Source: an uncultured Anaerolineae bacterium (GTDB lineage: Bacteria; Chloroflexota; Anaerolineae; Anaerolineales; Villigracilaceae). Taken from it: a stretch of 64,000 bases of DNA. Position numbers and translations under genes: made by a program. The notes under the pieces are model-generated. The model was not told where the DNA came from, ran no database searches, and worked only from the letters and a program-made list of their open reading frames with translations. The stretch covers positions 62,001 through 126,000 of the forward strand of contig CAIQVH010000018.1 of assembly GCA_903875215.1 (NCBI GenBank). The letters are read 5' to 3'. Shown piece after piece: positions 44,413-52,437 of the stretch (the first letter of the stretch is position 1; each line of letters begins with the position of its first letter).

Positions 44413-47202
44413 TTACTTGACCGTAAACCAGACTTCAAGCGTATTCTGGTTTCCCAGCCGGTCGCGGGCCAGGAGGCGCAGATGATGCCTTCCCGCGCTG
44501 GCCGGCCAGGAAACGGTAAATGGCTCGGCAGTGAAAGATCGCAGCAGGTTGTCATCCAGGTAAACATCCACCTTTTGGAGCGAGAAATTATCCTGAACAT
44601 GCGGCTGGATGATCAGGCGGGGATTTTCGGCTAATGAGATTTCCGCGCCATCAGCGGGGAAATCAAGCTGGAGGTTCGGTGGCTGGTTGTCGACCAGAAC
44701 CTGTGTGCTGAAAGTTTCCACACGCTGGCTGGCATGCACCAGGAGCAATTGCAAGACATACAGGCCATTCAGGCTGCTGGTATCCCAGGCAGCCAGCGTC
44801 CCGCCGGTGACCGGAGCGTGATTTTCGGCGATCATCACCCAGTTGGCCGGGTTGAGGCCCTGCCCGTATTGCAGACGATAATACGAGAAATCATCTGCGC
44901 TGACACTGCCGGTAACGGTGACCTGGCCCTTGAGTTCAGAAAAAATAGCGGGGGAGGTAATGGCAAAGTTGGGATTGATGGCCGGGGCGCGCAGGGTGTC
45001 GTAGGTGTCGGGCGGCGATTCCAGGCCCTGCTCAGCCGCCCAGGCAGCGGCTTCGGGTGGAACCTGCAAATACACGCGAGTCTCGATCAGTTGTGGGGGA
45101 GTGTAAACGGTGGCAAGGTAACCAGTTTCGCGGTTAATGGCATATGAGCGGTACAGCGTATCGGCCTGGACAGGCTGGTAACCGTCAATAAACGTCTCGT
45201 TTACCAGGTTGGGACAGGTGGAGGTTGGCAGCAAGCCGGACGGGTCGCAGACGGTCAGACGCAGGATACCGGGGGGCGTTTGCCAGCTTTCGGGCGGCAC
45301 TGCGCGGCTGGCGGCCTGCATCACGGCTGACCATAAGCCGGCGGCAGGCCGCGCAGATAATTGCGGGCCGCCCAGCCAGACGACGGCCACACGCTGGGGC
45401 GTGTACCCGGCCACCCAGGCTTCTAAGCCAGCCGGGCTGGATGCGGGCTTGACGGCGGCCGGCCGGCCAATTTCATACAGGCCGGCAGCCCCGGAACGAA
45501 TGGCCGCATCGGAGAGCACATCGCTGACGAGGTAGGCAAGCGGCGGGCTGACAACCTGTTCGGCGGCGGGAACGCTCCAATCGGCATATTCGCGCCCATC
45601 GGTGCCGCGCAGGGCCAGCAGGGCTGAATAAGTCAGCGCGCCGCCAGTGGTACTGGATCCAACCAGGGCGCCTTCTGCGGCGAAAATTCCGTAGGCGCGG
45701 GCCAGGTCCAGGACGGTGTAGCGATGCTCAGTGGCGAGTAAATCGGCCAGGTTGGCGGCGGGCAGGTCGAAGCCGAAAGGCCGCAGGGTCTGCTGTACCA
45801 GGCTGGCACCCAGGTCATCAAAAAGCTGGGCGGCGGGAACCGGGTAGTCGTTGGCAAGTGCAACGCGCAGTCGCAGCGGGCCATGAAAAACGCCGTCGAG
45901 GTTGGCCAGAGTGGAGTTTTGGCGAGGGATGTCCCAGACGAGGGTGGCCGGAGACAGGCCGCGGGTGAATCCGGCCAGGTAGACAAAGGGGCTAAGGAGC
46001 GTGCCGGGGCGGTGAGGGGCCAGGTAGCCGGCTTCCAGGCCGTTTTTGGTTTCTCCAACCAAAGCCAGGATCTGCCCGGTGCGCGGATTGATAACGACGG
46101 CGCTGGCGGAGGCTTCGGGAGCGGCGGAGCCGGGCGGCAGTGGGGCCAGGGCGGCAGAGCCTTCACACGGGTCGGAGCTCGTCTCTGCCAGGCGGGCAAG
46201 CTGGGTGCGCATGGCACAGGCGACGCGAGCCTGCATCTCCAGGTCGAGGCTGGTGATCAGGTCCATGCCACCGCGCTCGACGCGGGCGCGGTTGAAGCGG
46301 GTTTCGAGCTGGGCCAGCACAAGGGGGGTGAAGGCCGGGGCCAGGCTGGCGGGCGTCGAATCGGGTTGAAAGATGAGCGGGGTAAAGCGCGCCAGGTTGA
46401 CTTCCTGCGCGCTGACCAGGCCGGAGGTTTCGAGCAGGTCGAGCGCTTGTTGCTGGCGCTGGGTGGCGGCCTGCGGAGCATCGAGCGGATTGATGGCGGG
46501 GGACTGGTTGACGGCAGCCAGCAGGGCAACTTCGGCCAGGTTAAGCCGGGCGGCAGGTTTGCCGAAATAGAGCTGGGCGGCATCTTCGATGCCGTAGGCG
46601 TAGCGACCATACCAGGCTGTGTTGAGATACCACTCGAGGACTTGTTCGCGGCCATAGCGGCTGACAAGCTGGGCGGCGAGGATGCGCTCACGCAAAGCGC
46701 GGCGCAGGCCGGGCGGTTCATCCCAAAGCACCAGGTCGGCGATCAGGGCCTGGGCCAGGGTGGGGTGATCATCGGGATTGGTCAGGCCGGCCAGGGTGTA
46801 GCCGGGATGTTTCCAGAATCCGGGGTCGATCAGCGCTATGGTGGCGGCTTGCAGGCTGGCAGGGAGATGTTCCGGGGCGCCCGGCTGCACGCTTACGTAA
46901 TGGCGCCGCGCATCACGAGTGCCCAACACGGCAATCAGCTGGGTGCCGGTGCGATCATAGAGACGGGTGGGCTGCAGCAGGGGGCCGTTTTCCGGGTCCA
47001 GCAGGGTGGGGATCAGTTCAATGGATGGCAGCCCGGCCGTCAGGGAGGCGTAGAATAATGTCCCGCCGAGGATGAGGCAGGCCGCCAGGATGGATAAGAT
47101 CAAACCGAATCCAACCAGGCTGCCGGTGGTGCGGACACTTTGGCTCTGGCGCTCGAGCATGCGGCGGGCGCGGCGGCGGCGTAAGAGAGGAATTGCCGAC
47201 AT
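44413..47202 (-). CDS. PBP1C-like protein with degenerate glycosyltransferase and transpeptidase sites
   Basis: A 929-residue bifunctional penicillin-binding-protein homologue: an N-terminal membrane helix (about 27-50), GT51-like domain (about 75-260), transpeptidase-like domain (about 300-640) and a C-terminal PBP1C-type beta domain (about 760-860). The overall fold is kept (REQVLEWYLNTAWYGRYAYG, YFGKPAARLNLAEVALLA), but the active sites are not. The GT51 motif EDxxFxxHxG reads I125-D-P-G-F-W-K-H-P-G. The SxxK motif reads T401-L-L-S404, SxN reads D452-Y-P, and KTG reads K585-P-A. It may be a scaffold or regulator rather than an enzyme. A TACAAT box lies 7 bases before the ATG, without Shine-Dalgarno. 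Confidence 0.9.
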   Translation of the reverse strand: MSAIPLLRRRRARRMLERQSQSVRTTGSLVGFGLILSILAACLILGGTLFYASLTAGLPSIELIPTLLDPENGPLLQPTRLYDRTGTQLIAVLGTRDARRHYVSVQPGAPEHLPASLQAATIALIDPGFWKHPGYTLAGLTNPDDHPTLAQALIADLVLWDEPPGLRRALRERILAAQLVSRYGREQVLEWYLNTAWYGRYAYGIEDAAQLYFGKPAARLNLAEVALLAAVNQSPAINPLDAPQAATQRQQQALDLLETSGLVSAQEVNLARFTPLIFQPDSTPASLAPAFTPLVLAQLETRFNRARVERGGMDLITSLDLEMQARVACAMRTQLARLAETSSDPCEGSAALAPLPPGSAAPEASASAVVINPRTGQILALVGETKNGLEAGYLAPHRPGTLLSPFVYLAGFTRGLSPATLVWDIPRQNSTLANLDGVFHGPLRLRVALANDYPVPAAQLFDDLGASLVQQTLRPFGFDLPAANLADLLATEHRYTVLDLARAYGIFAAEGALVGSSTTGGALTYSALLALRGTDGREYADWSVPAAEQVVSPPLAYLVSDVLSDAAIRSGAAGLYEIGRPAAVKPASSPAGLEAWVAGYTPQRVAVVWLGGPQLSARPAAGLWSAVMQAASRAVPPESWQTPPGILRLTVCDPSGLLPTSTCPNLVNETFIDGYQPVQADTLYRSYAINRETGYLATVYTPPQLIETRVYLQVPPEAAAWAAEQGLESPPDTYDTLRAPAINPNFAITSPAIFSELKGQVTVTGSVSADDFSYYRLQYGQGLNPANWVMIAENHAPVTGGTLAAWDTSSLNGLYVLQLLLVHASQRVETFSTQVLVDNQPPNLQLDFPADGAEISLAENPRLIIQPHVQDNFSLQKVDVYLDDNLLRSFTAEPFTVSWPASAGRHHLRLLARDRLGNQNTLEVWFTVK

Positions 47203-47262: not shown

Positions 47263-48855
47263 TCAGGGTTGAACAGCGCGGAAGCCGGAACGCAGGGTCG
47301 GGCCGCGCAGTTCGACCCAGTAACGCGCTGAAGGCGTGCAGGGCAGGTCAGCGTAGGAGCAGAAGCCAAAGTCGCGGGCACACCAGGCCTGACCATTGGC
47401 CAGGCCGCAGGCCTCCACCGGAGCGCGGTCGTAGCCGGCCGGCAGCAACAGGCGCGCAGTGAACGTCTGCGGCTCAAAGGCCAAGACCAGTGTGAGGCCC
47501 AGGTAAGCCAACAGCAGCCCGGAGGCCAGCGCTGCGCTGCGGGTCGGCAAAAGCGGCCAACGGCGGAGCAGCGGCGGGAACCAGGGCGCCAGCGCCGTCA
47601 GCAGAGTGGCAAGCAGGAAACCGTAGCCAAAGCGGTAGTCGGGCGCGCTGAACAGCCAGAACAACACCCCGGTATACAGGGCGGCCCAGCCAGCCCACAA
47701 GCGCGGACGTTTGAAGCGTGCCAGCAGCGCAGAAAGCGGCGTGAGAAGGGCGGCGATAAAGATGATGCGGCGATTGAGAGTCTGCCTCAGCCACCAGAGC
47801 GGGAACCACTCTGCAAAATGAGCCGGCAGCTCACCGGGGCCGCCCAGCCGGCCAAAGCGCAGCACATCCAGCCGATCATCTTCCACGCGCTGGAAAGGGA
47901 TTTTCCAGTCGAAAGAGAACCAATCCAACGCGGGGAAGGGATAAAGCAGATAGCCGCTTAAAATCACATTCCGCGCCAGGAAAGGCAGCAGCACCAGGCC
48001 AGCACAGGCCGCCACCTGCCAGAGCTGGCGGCGTGCTGCCCCCCACAGGGCTGGCAGGCAGAGTAACAGCAGGGGCAAAGCCGAGAGTTTGACCGTCACG
48101 GCAAAACTGGCCAGCAGGGTGATGAGCAGCAGCTGTCCGGGCTGATCTGTTTCAGCGCTTTCAACAGACAGCAGCGTCACCACCCAGATCAGAAGGCTGA
48201 CGGGTAGATCAGTGCCAGGCGAAGACAATTCGCCACCCAGGACATAAAACCCGAGCGGCAGAAATCCCAGCCGGAGCAGGGAGGCTGCCGAGACGCGCCC
48301 GGTCTGCAGATCGCGCAGCCCTGGCCAGAAGAGCGCAAAAGCGGACAGAAATAGCACGCTGGCGCTTAAATGCAGGGAGCCCAACCCGAGAAAAGCAAAG
48401 CTGAACAGGGCATTCGTCACCAGCCAGGCGGAATTAAAAGCCAGCCGCCCATGCAAGTTACCCAGACCTGGCACCGCCGGGTACGTCTCGAGCCAGCGAA
48501 TGGCCTGGGCATGATAGAGGCTGGTATCGGGGTTGGACGGGCGGGAAGTGGCGCTGACCAGAACCAGCACTGCGGCAGTCAACAGAACGAGCAGAGGCAG
48601 CCAGCCTGGCACAGACAGGTTGAATTCAGGCCGGGGCAGGCGGTGCGTGGCAAGCAGAAAAATAGCCCCAGCCAGCAGGATCAGGTGAATCAGCCAGCCG
48701 AGCGGGAAAAAGAGCGAAAAGAATTCGGCAAACACGGTCAACACCGCCATGCCGGCGATGACCGTCAGCGCGGGAGGCTGGTTTTTGAAGAACCACGCGC
48801 CATAGATCCAGCAGAGAAACAGGGTATACGCCCAGACGAGCAGGGTCAGGAGCAT
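47263..48855 (-). CDS. Polytopic membrane protein, LIC_10190-like (possible glycosyltransferase)
   Basis: A 530-residue integral membrane protein with about 12 helices. The extracytoplasmic loop after the third or fourth helix carries NPDTSLYHAQAIRWLE and the segment VPGLGNLHGRLAFNS, the strongest signature of the LIC_10190-type family; the Asp in PDT and the overall plan recall GT-C glycosyltransferases, but activity is unproven. The C-terminal 60 residues form a Cys-containing outer domain (CGLANGQAWCARDFGFC). The start at 48855 lies one base after the upstream stop (TGACATG), showing coupling. An in-frame start at 48936 overlaps the previous gene and is rejected. Confidence 0.82.
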   Translation of the reverse strand: MLLTLLVWAYTLFLCWIYGAWFFKNQPPALTVIAGMAVLTVFAEFFSLFFPLGWLIHLILLAGAIFLLATHRLPRPEFNLSVPGWLPLLVLLTAAVLVLVSATSRPSNPDTSLYHAQAIRWLETYPAVPGLGNLHGRLAFNSAWLVTNALFSFAFLGLGSLHLSASVLFLSAFALFWPGLRDLQTGRVSAASLLRLGFLPLGFYVLGGELSSPGTDLPVSLLIWVVTLLSVESAETDQPGQLLLITLLASFAVTVKLSALPLLLLCLPALWGAARRQLWQVAACAGLVLLPFLARNVILSGYLLYPFPALDWFSFDWKIPFQRVEDDRLDVLRFGRLGGPGELPAHFAEWFPLWWLRQTLNRRIIFIAALLTPLSALLARFKRPRLWAGWAALYTGVLFWLFSAPDYRFGYGFLLATLLTALAPWFPPLLRRWPLLPTRSAALASGLLLAYLGLTLVLAFEPQTFTARLLLPAGYDRAPVEACGLANGQAWCARDFGFCSYADLPCTPSARYWVELRGPTLRSGFRAVQP

Positions 48856-48856
48856 G

Positions 48857-50122
48857 TCAGGATCCGATGAATTCGTTGATCCAGCCGAGCAGCCCGCGCG
48901 GAGGAATTTCGCAGTGCAGGCTGCCCTGCCGGCCATTGATGATGACCGGGTATTCCTGCCCGTCGTAGGGAAAGTTCGTCAGCCAGAGCGGGACCAGGAT
49001 CAGTTGGAAGGTTTGGATCGCCAGGCCGGCGGTGCTGTATCCCAGGTCACTGACCGGGCCAATCTCGGTGCGCAGCAGGCTGCGTAAGCGCTGGGCAGCC
49101 TGTTCGCGGGCCTCCAGCGAGGCGTCGGCCAGGGCCAGGGTGGGAAGTTCGGCGGGCCAGCCGGCCAGGTAACGGGGGTCGTAGGCCGGGGCGTTGGCGG
49201 TGTCAAAACCGCTCATTATTTTCGGCAGTAAATCTGCCAGTTTGGGCGCACCGGGGACGCAAATCTCGTTGAAGCTGACCAGTTTTTCGCCGTTAACCGG
49301 TACGCGTTGCCTGTCGCGCTGCAGCGTGCCACGCCAGGGGATGTTTCCGAGCAGGTCAAAGCTCCAAACCGGCGCGTATACGCCGCGCGGAGCCTGGACT
49401 TTGCCCTGCGGGGTGAGTTCGCGCTGCTGCGCCCACGCGACGAGCCGCTGGGCGGCCTGGCGCTGGTCAAGTGTCATGGGAATGATGGCGTCTGGTGCGA
49501 TCAGGTCGTGGGTGCCGTGAACGACATGATTCGAGCCACAGTAGGGGCAGGCTGAGGCCATCTGCTCGGGCGGCAGGACAAATTGCGCGCCGCAGCCCTG
49601 GCAGGAGACGGTTTTAACCGTCTGCGGGGGGCGATGTCCGCGCCGGGTAGCCATGCTCAGAATAAAATCCTGCTCCTGTTGCGGGGCAGCCGCGGCAAGA
49701 GTCTGGTTGCGGGAACAAAAGTCGCAGACCAGGGAGCGGCCATCAGGCGCAAAAGCCATCCGCCCGCCGCATGTGGGGCAGGTGAAGCGGTCGGTAGTTG
49801 CCGCCTGGGTCTGGGCGGCTGGCCCTGGGAGCGCATCCGGGTTGATGAGTTCCCCCGGCTGCAGGCGGCCATCCAGCAAGGCCAGCGCCCGGCGCGCTTC
49901 GGGGTGGGTCGGCTCATTGGCCAGAGTTTCTTCCAGGTATTTTCGCTTTTCAGCCGGGTCGCGGATGACCACGCTCATCCAGTAATTGGACTGGACGCGC
50001 GTTTCATGATCATCGGCCAGCTCAATGGCGCGCTCGAGATAGCGCTGCGCCAGGTCATATTCACCCACTCTGGCGTGGAGAATAGCCTGGCGCAGAAGGT
50101 TATTATCGTAATCGGAAGGCAT
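48857..50122 (-). CDS. TPR and double zinc-ribbon protein (hypothetical)
   Basis: A 421-residue soluble protein of unknown function. Residues 5-85 hold TPR-like helices (AILHARVGEYDLAQRYLERAIE). Two zinc ribbons follow: CPTCGGRMAFAPDG...CDFC near 115-140 and CQGCGAQFVLPPEQMASACPYC near 175-196. The rest is an alpha/beta region with VPLWLTNFPYDGQEYPVIING near the end. The layout is like bacterial proteins annotated as zinc-ribbon domain-containing or helicase-related. It sits in a run of minus-strand genes behind folP with 15 bases between, and no clear Shine-Dalgarno. Co-transcription with folP is likely. Confidence 0.78.
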   Translation of the reverse strand: MPSDYDNNLLRQAILHARVGEYDLAQRYLERAIELADDHETRVQSNYWMSVVIRDPAEKRKYLEETLANEPTHPEARRALALLDGRLQPGELINPDALPGPAAQTQAATTDRFTCPTCGGRMAFAPDGRSLVCDFCSRNQTLAAAAPQQEQDFILSMATRRGHRPPQTVKTVSCQGCGAQFVLPPEQMASACPYCGSNHVVHGTHDLIAPDAIIPMTLDQRQAAQRLVAWAQQRELTPQGKVQAPRGVYAPVWSFDLLGNIPWRGTLQRDRQRVPVNGEKLVSFNEICVPGAPKLADLLPKIMSGFDTANAPAYDPRYLAGWPAELPTLALADASLEAREQAAQRLRSLLRTEIGPVSDLGYSTAGLAIQTFQLILVPLWLTNFPYDGQEYPVIINGRQGSLHCEIPPRGLLGWINEFIGS

Positions 50123-50137
50123 GCGCGGGAACCAGCT

Positions 50138-51022
50138 TCACGCCCGCGCCTGGCGGACAATGGCATCCGTCATTTTGGCCACGCGCGCCATCACTTCAAC
50201 ATCGTGGACGCGGACAATATCTGCGCCGCGCACAATCCCCACTGCAACGGCGGCGGCAGTCCCTTCCACGCGTTCAGCGGGAGGCAGGTTGAGGGTATAC
50301 CCGATAAAGGATTTGCGCGAGGGGCCGAGCAGAACAGGAAACCCCAGGGCGCGGATCTCGTCCAGGCGATTGAGCAGCTCCAGGTTTTGCTCCACGGTTT
50401 TGCCGAATCCGATGCCGGGGTCGAGCAGAATCTTCCCATCCGGGATGCCAGCGGCACGTGCCAGGGACACCGACTCGAGCAGTTCGCGCCTGGTGTCTGC
50501 CAGCAGATCGACATATTCCATGCCGATATAACGCCCGCCGAGATTGGCCTGCACCTGGGCGTTGGACGGTTGGCTGCGATTGTGCATCAGGATAACCGGC
50601 ACCCCGGCCCGGGCCACCGTGCCGGCCAGCTGTGGGTCGGCACGCAAGCCCCAGACATCGTTCACCAGTTGCGCGCCTGCGGCGATGGCCGCCTCGGCGA
50701 CGACCGCCTTGTAGGTGTCGATGGAAATCACCACGCCGGGGAATTCTTTCACCAACGCCGCGATGACCGACACCACCCGTTCCAGTTCCATTGCGGCGCT
50801 GACGGTCTGCGAGCCGGGGCGGGTGGATTCGCCGCCCACATCCAGCAGGTCGGCGCCTGCAGCCAGGAAACGGCGGGCCTGTTCCAGGGCGGCATCCTGC
50901 GCCTGGTGTGGGGCCAGCAATCCATCCCCAGAGAAGGAATCGGGGGTCAGGTTGAGGATCCCCATCACATACGTGCGCACACCCCACTCGAAGGTTTTTC
51001 CACCCACCTGCAAAGCCATCAT
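50138..51022 (-). CDS. folP: Dihydropteroate synthase
   Basis: A 294-residue TIM-barrel enzyme that joins p-aminobenzoate and hydroxymethyl-dihydropterin pyrophosphate, a folate-pathway step. Signatures: VMGILNLTPDSFSGDG (residues 19-34), LLDVGGESTRPGS (near 60), SIDTYK (near 100), and LLDPGIGFGKTVEQNL (near 200). The ATG overlaps the stop of the upstream STAS-like gene by 4 bases. With folK two genes upstream, this is a small folate cluster. Confidence 0.96.
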   Translation of the reverse strand: MMALQVGGKTFEWGVRTYVMGILNLTPDSFSGDGLLAPHQAQDAALEQARRFLAAGADLLDVGGESTRPGSQTVSAAMELERVVSVIAALVKEFPGVVISIDTYKAVVAEAAIAAGAQLVNDVWGLRADPQLAGTVARAGVPVILMHNRSQPSNAQVQANLGGRYIGMEYVDLLADTRRELLESVSLARAAGIPDGKILLDPGIGFGKTVEQNLELLNRLDEIRALGFPVLLGPSRKSFIGYTLNLPPAERVEGTAAAVAVGIVRGADIVRVHDVEVMARVAKMTDAIVRQARA

Positions 51023-51438
51023 ACCATTTGTTCCAACGGCTTCATCAGCCAGGCTTCGGCTTCGGCCATGCTGGTAAAAATGCGAATGGCCGCGCCGCTG
51101 CCAACCGCGCCGGCGGCAATTTTCATGATGGCCGTGCGCACGTCTTCGGTGGGCACCAGCACCGCCACGCGCAGGTTGCGGGTAACGGGGTCATTGTTGA
51201 CTTCCATGGCCATTTTGATGGCTTTTTCGGGGATGACCTGCACGTCGCGCAAGTCATACAGGTTGCGGGTCAGCCGGTCAGAGCCGAGCAAATGCTCGAG
51301 GGCAAAATCACGCCAATCGGCAAGGGTGGCTTCCGAGAGATCTGTAAAGGTCAGGTTCATGCCCCCGTCAGCGCGGCGCGCCACCGAGTAGCCGATTCCG
51401 GGCTTCTGGGCCCAATTAAGGGGTTTGAGTTCCGTCAT
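51019..51438 (-). CDS. STAS/SpoIIAA-like small protein (hypothetical)
   Basis: A 139-residue protein with a pattern like SpoIIAA/STAS-type alpha-beta folds: GMNLTFTDLSEATLADWRDF, LYDLRDVQVIPEKAIKMA, then VAVLVPTEDVRTAIMKIA. The start at 51438 has AAAGGAG 8 bases upstream; the in-frame start at 51492 is upstream of the promoter elements. A strong promoter (TTGATT-17-TATACT) lies just upstream, inside the 3' end of folK. It is translationally coupled to folP. Its role in the folate cluster is unknown. Confidence 0.7.
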   Translation of the reverse strand: MTELKPLNWAQKPGIGYSVARRADGGMNLTFTDLSEATLADWRDFALEHLLGSDRLTRNLYDLRDVQVIPEKAIKMAMEVNNDPVTRNLRVAVLVPTEDVRTAIMKIAAGAVGSGAAIRIFTSMAEAEAWLMKPLEQMV

Positions 51439-51463
51439 GTGCAACTCTCCTTTGAACAATCGT

Positions 51464-51492
51464 AGTATAGCGGGTTCAGCACCGGGAATCAA
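51464..51492 (-). promoter_or_regulatory. Strong internal promoter for the STAS-like/folP genes
   Basis: Minus strand: TTGATT at 51492-51487, exactly 17 bases, TATACT at 51469-51464, then AAAGGAG and the ATG at 51438. It overlaps the last codons of folK. Confidence 0.75.
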
Positions 51493-51997
51493 CCGGATGC
51501 GGACTGATTTTAAGCGTTTCTGAAAATTTCCGGATGCCGCTACGATCGACCCCGGCCAGCAGGGAGGCCACGCTCAAGCCCAGGCGCGGGTGAATCAGGC
51601 CGGGGGCCAGGTCGGCCAGTGGTACGAGCACAAAGGCGCGCTCGTGCAGGCGCGGGTGTGGCAAGGTGAGGGGAGGCGTATCCAGTTGCAGGTTGTCGTA
51701 GAAGAGAATGTCCAGATCGATCAAGCGCGGACCGTTGCGGAAGGTGGGCGTACGGCCCTGGTCGGCTTCGAGTTTTTTCAGGAACGAGAGCAGGCGGGCG
51801 GGTGAAAGGCGGGTGGCGGCGCGGACGACCATGTTCAGAAAAGCCGGCTGGTCGGCAAACCCCCAGGGATCCGTCTCGTAAACGTGTGATTCGGTCACGA
51901 CATGCACGTTCGGCGCAAAAGCATCCAGCGCAGCGCGCAGGTTGTAGAGACGGTCACCAAGATTGGTGCCCAGGGCGATATAAAGGGTGTGGGTCAT
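51476..51997 (-). CDS. folK: Hydroxymethyl-dihydropterin pyrophosphokinase
   Basis: A 173-residue HPPK that pyrophosphorylates 6-hydroxymethyl-dihydropterin for FolP. Family motifs: YIALGTNLGDR at the N terminus, SHVYETDPWGFADQPAFLN, LEADQGRTPTFRNGPRLIDLDILFYD with the Mg-binding Asp pair, and HPRLHERAFVLVPL. The start at 51997 begins the core fold; the upstream in-frame extension from 52171 is antisense/unconserved. No good Shine-Dalgarno was found. It is followed by the STAS-like and folP genes. Confidence 0.95.
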   Translation of the reverse strand: MTHTLYIALGTNLGDRLYNLRAALDAFAPNVHVVTESHVYETDPWGFADQPAFLNMVVRAATRLSPARLLSFLKKLEADQGRTPTFRNGPRLIDLDILFYDNLQLDTPPLTLPHPRLHERAFVLVPLADLAPGLIHPRLGLSVASLLAGVDRSGIRKFSETLKISPHPVDSRC

Positions 51998-52026
51998 GAT
52001 CAGGAGAGACGGGAAGATTTCCAGGG

Positions 52027-52437
52027 TCAGGGTTGTAAATGTTCCGGGGTAAAGGCACCCGGGAGCAGGTCGCGGACGGTGCTGCGCTCCACCAGGCGGC
52101 CGTTTGCATCCGCCACCAGCACAATCATCTCCAGACCGAATTCGGCCATCACCTGCCGGCAGCCGCCGCACGGGAAACCGCCATTCGAGGTGACAACGGC
52201 CAGGGCTTCAAATTCACGCTCGCCTTCAGAAACGGCCTTGAAGATGGCCACGCGCTCGGCGCAGATGGTGGTCGGGTAGGCGGCGCTCTCGATGTTAACT
52301 CCGGTAAAAATGCGGCCTGAGCGGGTGCGCAATGCTGCGCCAACCAGGTACTTGGAATAGGGCGCATAGGCCTTCAGGCGGGTTTCGGCCGCCAGTTGGA
52401 TCAGATCGCGGGTCTCCAGGTCTGAAATCACGCTCAT
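52027..52437 (-). CDS. cdd: Cytidine deaminase
   Basis: A 136-residue tetrameric-type cytidine deaminase of the pyrimidine salvage pathway. The zinc site is Cys59-Ala-Glu61 (with catalytic Glu61) plus Cys90 and Cys93 in FPCGGCRQVM, as in Cys-type (not His-type) CDAs. The N-terminal segment YAPYSKYLVGAALRT is the substrate-binding signature. CAGGAGAG precedes the ATG. It lies between glmU and folK on the same strand. Confidence 0.97.
   Translation of the reverse strand: MSVISDLETRDLIQLAAETRLKAYAPYSKYLVGAALRTRSGRIFTGVNIESAAYPTTICAERVAIFKAVSEGEREFEALAVVTSNGGFPCGGCRQVMAEFGLEMIVLVADANGRLVERSTVRDLLPGAFTPEHLQP

Follow-up and report, generated by a model that had tools for sequence, protein, structure and literature searches.

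An apparently inactive class A penicillin-binding protein kept in many families of the order Anaerolineales

The gene and the domain organization of its product

The gene described here lies in a 64,000-nucleotide stretch of DNA from an uncultured Anaerolineae bacterium (assembly GCA_903875215.1, contig CAIQVH010000018.1, positions 62,001 to 126,000), and "the window" denotes that whole stretch. It encodes a class A penicillin-binding protein (PBP) of the PBP1A/PBP1C type whose glycosyltransferase (GT) and transpeptidase sites are both, in all likelihood, dead. The coding strand is the minus strand (window 47202-44413), and the frame runs unbroken over 929 codons and a stop codon. The gene and the parts of its product are listed below, with the basis of each assignment in brackets.

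44413-47202, minus strand: gene for a class A PBP (PBP1A/PBP1C type) with putatively dead sites, 929 aa (open reading frame, Pfam, NCBIfam)
47053-47118, minus strand: N-terminal transmembrane segment, about residues 29-50 (the top 19-residue hydropathy windows begin at 27-34; helix 4-55 in the model)
46429-46974, minus strand: GT51-like pseudo-glycosyltransferase lobe, residues 77-258 (PF00912 at 91.5 bits; motif losses)
46828-46830, minus strand: I125, replacing the GT51 catalytic Glu (translation, aligned active PBPs)
45358-46110, minus strand: transpeptidase-like pseudo-domain, residues 365-615 (PF00905 borderline; class A PBP fold)
45991-46002, minus strand: TLLS (401-404) at the SxxK site (aligned active PBPs)
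45841-45849, minus strand: DYP (452-454) at the SxN site (aligned active PBPs)
45442-45450, minus strand: KPA (585-587) at the KTG site (aligned active PBPs)
44689-45357, minus strand: C-terminal module, residues 616-838 (conservation by region; model)
44416-44679, minus strand: C-terminal immunoglobulin (Ig)-like domain (Big_7/BiPBP_C), residues 842-929 (Pfam)

By descent the protein is a class A PBP, with GT51 followed by a transpeptidase fold on a single membrane-anchored chain. PF00912 (GT51) matched residues 111-255 above the Pfam cut-off, and the match to PF00905 (Transpeptidase) was borderline, at 19.5 bits on the protein and 22.2 bits in the genome search against a cut-off of 22.1. The Ig-like domain was matched by Big_7 (37.6 bits) and by BiPBP_C (PF06832, 27.5 bits), which passed its cut-off of 26.8. 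The top NCBIfam match was PBP_1a_fam (TIGR02074), whose 244 bits fell far short of the cut-off of 508.75; PBP_1c (TIGR02073) came second and did not reach its cut-off either (175.4 versus 494.2 bits). The Big_7/BiPBP_C domain is absent in many orthologues of family f1, including L045 and L050 of the window's own genus, and may therefore have been lost repeatedly (here and below, family codes such as f1 or f38 and row codes beginning with L or G are working labels).

Loss of the catalytic motifs

At its catalytic positions the window protein reads I125-D126, T401-L-L-S404, D452-Y-P454, and K585-P-A587, exactly as the initial annotation of this DNA had given them; its coordinates are right too, but it did not mention that the gene is on the minus strand. 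HPTLAQA stands in GT51 motif 2 where GGSTITQQ is expected, and the Lys of motif 3 is A169. That annotation had also claimed the loss of every catalytic motif, which is too broad: Glu125, SxxK, SxN, and the full KTG are gone, but the second GT Glu (E172, in motif 3) and the Lys of KTG (K585) are retained.

Intact motifs hidden by misalignment were ruled out by regular-expression searches and by alignment with active orthologues; no intact motif was found at its place in the chain. The pattern E[DE]..[FYW] had no match across the whole window protein, S..K had none inside the transpeptidase domain and was present only at 755 and 874, and S.N occurred only at 810. KTG-like triplets are found at 84 (RTG), 374 (RTG), and 569 (RSG). 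The two RTG triplets recur at the equivalent positions of the active orthologue L037, in addition to its KTG, and hence are not the KTG site. Sequencing error or a lone pseudogene was likewise ruled out, by the orthologues from other genomes. Judged by these residues, we are highly confident that the window protein is catalytically dead, and we infer that it would show no activity in vitro.

Distribution of the loss among homologues

The best matches to the protein were fetched by genome searches and by a scan of named genomes. After removal of 36 duplicate rows with identical last 400 residues, 149 distinct rows were aligned. Of these, 144 belong to the order Anaerolineales ("the order" hereafter), 99 of them from genomes and the window and 45 from named records, with L007, L008, and three class-level rows excluded. 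The named relatives were obtained with alignment A1, which gave 253 related stretches, 80 of which were kept (P0001 alone gave none); most are labeled Anaerolineales or Anaerolineae, and the others Chloroflexi or Chloroflexota. A match was found in 294 of 400 order genomes, the motifs being read only where the locus had been fetched and L256 being excluded from the reading.

The transpeptidase site was dead in 134 of the 144 order rows and intact in 10. Lys404 and SxN were absent in every one of the 134 dead rows, and position 125 was occupied by a residue other than Glu in 130 of the 143 order rows readable at that position. L084 is cut short at the end of its contig, lacks the GT lobe, and gives no residue at 125; it was counted in the 131-row GT tally and omitted from the trees. 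E172 was present in 102 of 133 readable dead rows (101 of 131 in an earlier tally). The dead rows that carry a family code belong to f1, f2, f3, f62, f63, f64, f65, f66, f69, and f70, and the intact order rows to f4, f61, f67, f68, and f71. With 134 of 144 order rows dead, the motif loss in the window protein is no chance event. The four substitutions, which had been put forward as an argument for selection, are weak taken alone, and it is the order-wide pattern that carries the argument. The dead sites common to orthologues in ten families are also in agreement with the initial view of a protein that, by its sequence, would be non-enzymatic.

Outside the order, 40 of 43 homologues from the class read as intact, the exceptions being L039, L211, and L231; these rows were hand-picked from the upper part of the match list to span families, and f38 is over-represented among them. 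Two further class rows are L259 (f38), which is dead, and L260, which is intact. Beyond the class, Glu, SxxK, and KTG were kept in all 12 rows, with SED at the SxN site in L257.

Some rows deserve separate mention. PBP1C-type proteins elsewhere in the class are also degenerate (L039, L231, and L259 of f38 and L211 of f51). E125 is present, either kept or regained, in L069, L187, and L190, together with ruined transpeptidase sites and a ruined GT motif 2. In L090 to L092 (f3), the GT lobe is nearly unrecognizable and the frame is open over about 950 codons.

Origin of the loss

Trees were computed without the motif columns. On a 90-row tree, built by a quick method with L007 and L008 as the root, one change separates the active from the doubly dead proteins when mixed rows are ignored, and two when they are included. 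The long rows L068, L086, L089, and L093 were omitted from this tree, the second to be built, and a third was built by a careful method from 39 hand-picked rows. In this third tree, the clade that usually carries the D452/K585 pair received support values of 98/100 and the wider dead clade 92/88; the placement of L211 is unresolved, and it is doubtful whether L090 and L259, both long rows, are joined correctly. The f38 pair L039/L231 appears as a separate loss in both the 90-row and the 39-row trees (100/99 in the latter). Most of the dead copies are thus traced by these trees to one main loss, with a second loss in f38.

Residues kept or replaced in the former transpeptidase cleft

D452 was found in 120 and K585 in 119 of the 134 dead order rows. 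The two occur together in 116 rows, Asp alone in 4, Lys alone in 3, and neither in 11, a count that is weakened as statistics by the kinship of the rows. In active PBPs, the side chains of the SxN Ser and the KTG Lys adjoin in the cleft, and an Asp-Lys salt bridge is therefore a natural reading; the counts suggest that Asp452 and Lys585 may form such a bridge in the former cleft.

Other positions are kept or have been switched. Ser or Thr is found at 401 in 128 of the 134 dead order rows, W596 in 136 of 136 and R446 in 134 of 136 transpeptidase-dead rows (two of them from outside the order), and R168 of the GT lobe in 120 of 131 rows. Position 397 is Arg in 98% of active rows and His in 75% of the 114 rows with D452 and K585 (both values weighted). 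Positions 404 (T, D, S, A, L) and 125 (e.g., A, S, L, Q, T, I) are variable in dead rows.

Other PBPs in the same genomes

The window's genome (G000; 3.77 Mb in 38 contigs) encodes two further GT51 proteins, L008 and L007 (203.8 and 190.1 bits), both with Glu, SxxK, SxN, and KTG intact, which answers the question left by the initial annotation of whether active PBPs exist elsewhere. Three more of its proteins have strong transpeptidase-domain matches and are classed by domain match alone. By hand count, a strong GT51 protein besides the dead copy was present in all 36 order genomes checked, G167 and G253 being excluded from this count. In the 20 of these 36 genomes in which the accompanying PBP was read (one PBP each), it was motif-intact throughout, 15 times by strict and 5 times by looser patterns.

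Selection and constraint

The dN/dS ratio was estimated by NG86 over the whole gene for 11 pairs of dead orthologues and 2 active pairs, the window gene being in none of them since its relatives are too distant. Nine of the 11 dead pairs gave values of 0.073 to 0.168, including L041/L042, a poor estimate with a dS of about 1.9; the active pairs gave 0.093 and 0.086. The remaining dead pairs were L012/L051 (0.306) and the nearly identical L136/L139 (0.340; dS 0.005). The dead orthologues are under strong purifying selection, with dN/dS well below 1. Together with the unbroken open reading frame and the same dead sites in ten families, these low ratios uphold the earlier statement that the gene is intact and not decaying.

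Conservation by region was compared in bins of overall identity, within which the row pairs are not independent. In dead pairs, residues 616-740 were more conserved than the transpeptidase domain in all six divergence bins (+0.038 to +0.134), whereas in active pairs they were less conserved, again in six of six (-0.021 to -0.129). These residues are the most constrained of the compared parts in dead homologues. The catalytic domains of dead copies are relaxed relative to those of active copies, and the C-terminal module is conserved at least as well. This contrast indicates that constraint has shifted away from the catalytic domains: what selection now holds best is the C-terminal module and not the old transpeptidase.

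Predicted structure

AlphaFold2, run with 66 sequences, gave a model with a mean predicted local distance difference test score (pLDDT) of 93.3 over 929 residues, in which helix 400-413 bears the SxxK position and strand 583-588 the KTG position. The best solved match by Foldseek was 3dwk (PBP2; E 8.9e-32), and further class A PBPs came next. VIA-align superposed 5u2g (H. influenzae PBP1A) with a Z of 35.9 over 514 aligned residues (root mean square deviation [rmsd] 8.1) and 7u4h with a Z of 35.8 over 389 residues (rmsd 2.7). Retention of the class A PBP fold is a confident prediction of the model. The C-terminal 296 residues modeled alone gave a pLDDT of 94.2 and resemble the FN3-like modules of CbhA (3pdd; E 3.3e-12; TM-score by target 0.44), with weaker matches to many Ig-type proteins; sharing a fold says nothing about function.

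Gene neighborhood

The following genes lie upstream of the PBP gene.

47263-48936, minus strand: hydrophobic protein of 557 aa, no Pfam match (Pfam scan, synteny)
48857-50122, minus strand: TPR/zinc-ribbon protein (three weak Pfam matches, all below cut-off; synteny)
50138-51022, minus strand: folP, dihydropteroate synthase (PF00809 at 259.6 bits)
51019-51492, minus strand: conserved 157-aa protein of unknown function between folK and folP, no Pfam match (Pfam scan, synteny)
51476-52171, minus strand: folK (HPPK), start codon uncertain (PF01288 at 136.2 bits)

The 557-aa protein directly upstream of the dead PBP is probably polytopic and is also found upstream in L252 and L253 of the same genus. 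Synteny was surveyed in 58 named loci with at least 4.5 kb of upstream DNA, where folP was found upstream of the dead PBP in 30, the 157-aa protein in 29, the zinc-ribbon protein in 23, and folK in 19; the names glmU, cdd, and ferritin in this survey are labels taken from translations, with no family search behind them. Each of the f1 loci L250 to L253 has folP, the 157-aa protein, and the zinc-ribbon protein, and none gave a match for folK. The window's neighbors were not found near the dead copies L247 to L249 (f66 and f2), nor near 13 active orthologues (L234 to L246, with only 0.7 kb of upstream DNA in L236 and 3.4 kb in L244). A conserved operon partner was rejected, as the upstream genes recur in only about half of the 58 named loci. 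A Pfam scan of six neighbors found no beta-lactamase; no resistance library was searched.

Discussion

The window protein shares with PBP1A and PBP1C (TIGR02074, TIGR02073) the N-terminal membrane anchor, the domain order of GT51, transpeptidase, and BiPBP_C, the C-terminal Ig-like domain, and the predicted fold. It differs from them in that both of its active sites appear dead and in scoring far below the NCBIfam cut-offs, and it has active orthologues in five families of its own order. We suggest that it is a conserved pseudoenzyme which now takes part in peptidoglycan synthesis as a scaffold or regulator without catalysis, and we consider this explanation probable, though with some reserve. 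The ancestor would have been an active orthologous class A PBP that lost both catalytic sites early in the order, and its product would then have been kept, anchored in the membrane and non-catalytic, within the machinery that makes peptidoglycan. Partners such as the elongation complex or one of the active class A PBPs may be held or regulated by the two pseudo-domains and, most of all, by the C-terminal module (616-838), and the ruined transpeptidase cleft may be locked by the Asp452-Lys585 pair.

That a dead-looking protein is so well kept beside working copies suggests a structural or regulatory part, and the role of scaffold or regulator is proposed by analogy with two known systems. A catalytically inactive mutant of B. 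subtilis PBP 2B is reported to support division still while another PBP supplies the activity (PMC5656894). The likeness lies in the structural support of division without catalysis; there, however, an active PBP with a transpeptidase role was inactivated in the laboratory, whereas the loss in the window family is natural and ancient and appears to affect both activities of a class A PBP. The other analogy is with inactive LytM-type regulators such as DipM, a degenerate cell-wall enzyme kept as a regulator, although DipM is reported to have a different domain and to regulate hydrolases, not synthases (PMC10336132).

Several points weigh against our proposal. The dN/dS estimates do not include the window gene itself and are higher in L012/L051 and L136/L139, and the pairs in the regional comparison are not independent. 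K[TS]G is still spelled in 11 of the 134 dead order rows, and Ser401 stands in 86. The copies of f3 and f69 are strongly eroded. In f1, 108 of 118 genomes had a match at 1e-90 by hand count, mostly not read individually, and 10 had none; in f2, G243, G320, and G334 have one GT51 each. The gene is thus absent or unrecognized in some lineages and so is not needed everywhere. Finally, the upstream genes, those for folate synthesis and others, recur only in part, so that they name no partner.

Among the alternatives, the one that survives best, unlikely as we consider it, is that of a receptor or sensor whose old clefts bind lipid II, stem peptide, or glycan without turnover and which signals to, or positions, the synthesis machine. 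The hydroxyl residue at 401 (128/134), the persistence of W596 and R446, and the GT residues R168 (120/131) and E172 (101/131) would suit such a function. In active enzymes, however, the substrate is recognized by SxN, KTG, GT motif 2, and the Lys of motif 3, and here SxN is gone in all 134 dead rows and the full K[TS]G in 123, while the two GT elements are missing from most rows.

A bolder and rather improbable idea is that the transpeptidase cleft has been rebuilt, S/T401, D452, and K585 (with H397) forming a new pocket, which would give the order a new enzyme or a dedicated cell-wall receptor. It is clearly less likely still that S/T401, D452, K585, and perhaps H397 make up the catalytic center of a different enzyme. 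The frequencies of S/T401, D452, and K585 (128, 120, and 119 of 134) and the switch from Arg to His at 397 speak for such a rewired site, but S/T401 starts the model helix 400-413 and may be a mere helix cap, and position 404 varies. We know of no S/T-D-K triad of this kind in the PBP transpeptidase fold.

Lineage-specific decay, in which an unneeded paralogue is becoming a pseudogene with its frame still open by chance, is at least as improbable. It would account for the variable letters at the dead sites, such as those at 125, for the relaxation of the catalytic domains relative to active copies, for the erosion in f3 and f69, and for the lineages with no recognized copy. However, frames stay open in ten families, dN/dS is 0.07 to 0.17 in nine of the 11 pairs, D452 and K585 are widely kept, and the C-terminal module is conserved no less than in active proteins; the dN/dS values and the conservation by region speak strongly against decay.

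A decoy that soaks up beta-lactams or moenomycin, as had also been proposed initially, is scarcely credible: Ser401 does persist in the 86 rows mentioned, but the SxxK Lys, which is needed to activate the Ser for acylation, is missing in all 134 dead rows (its absence defines the group), Thr and not Ser stands at 401 in the window protein, and the Pfam scan of six neighbors showed no beta-lactamase.

We know of no other class A PBP family in nature that is maintained throughout an order despite the loss of both activities, and the literature searched, which covered few subscription papers, yielded no naturally occurring class A PBP with both domains dead. Considering that PF00912 still matches the dead proteins above its cut-off, counts of class A PBPs by domain matches may run too high in these genomes, which is a caution for annotators. 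With its apparent loss of both activities, the family offers a natural experiment in which the structural role of class A PBPs can be told apart from their catalytic one, a matter still open in cell-wall biology, and the active orthologues from five families of the order provide the controls.

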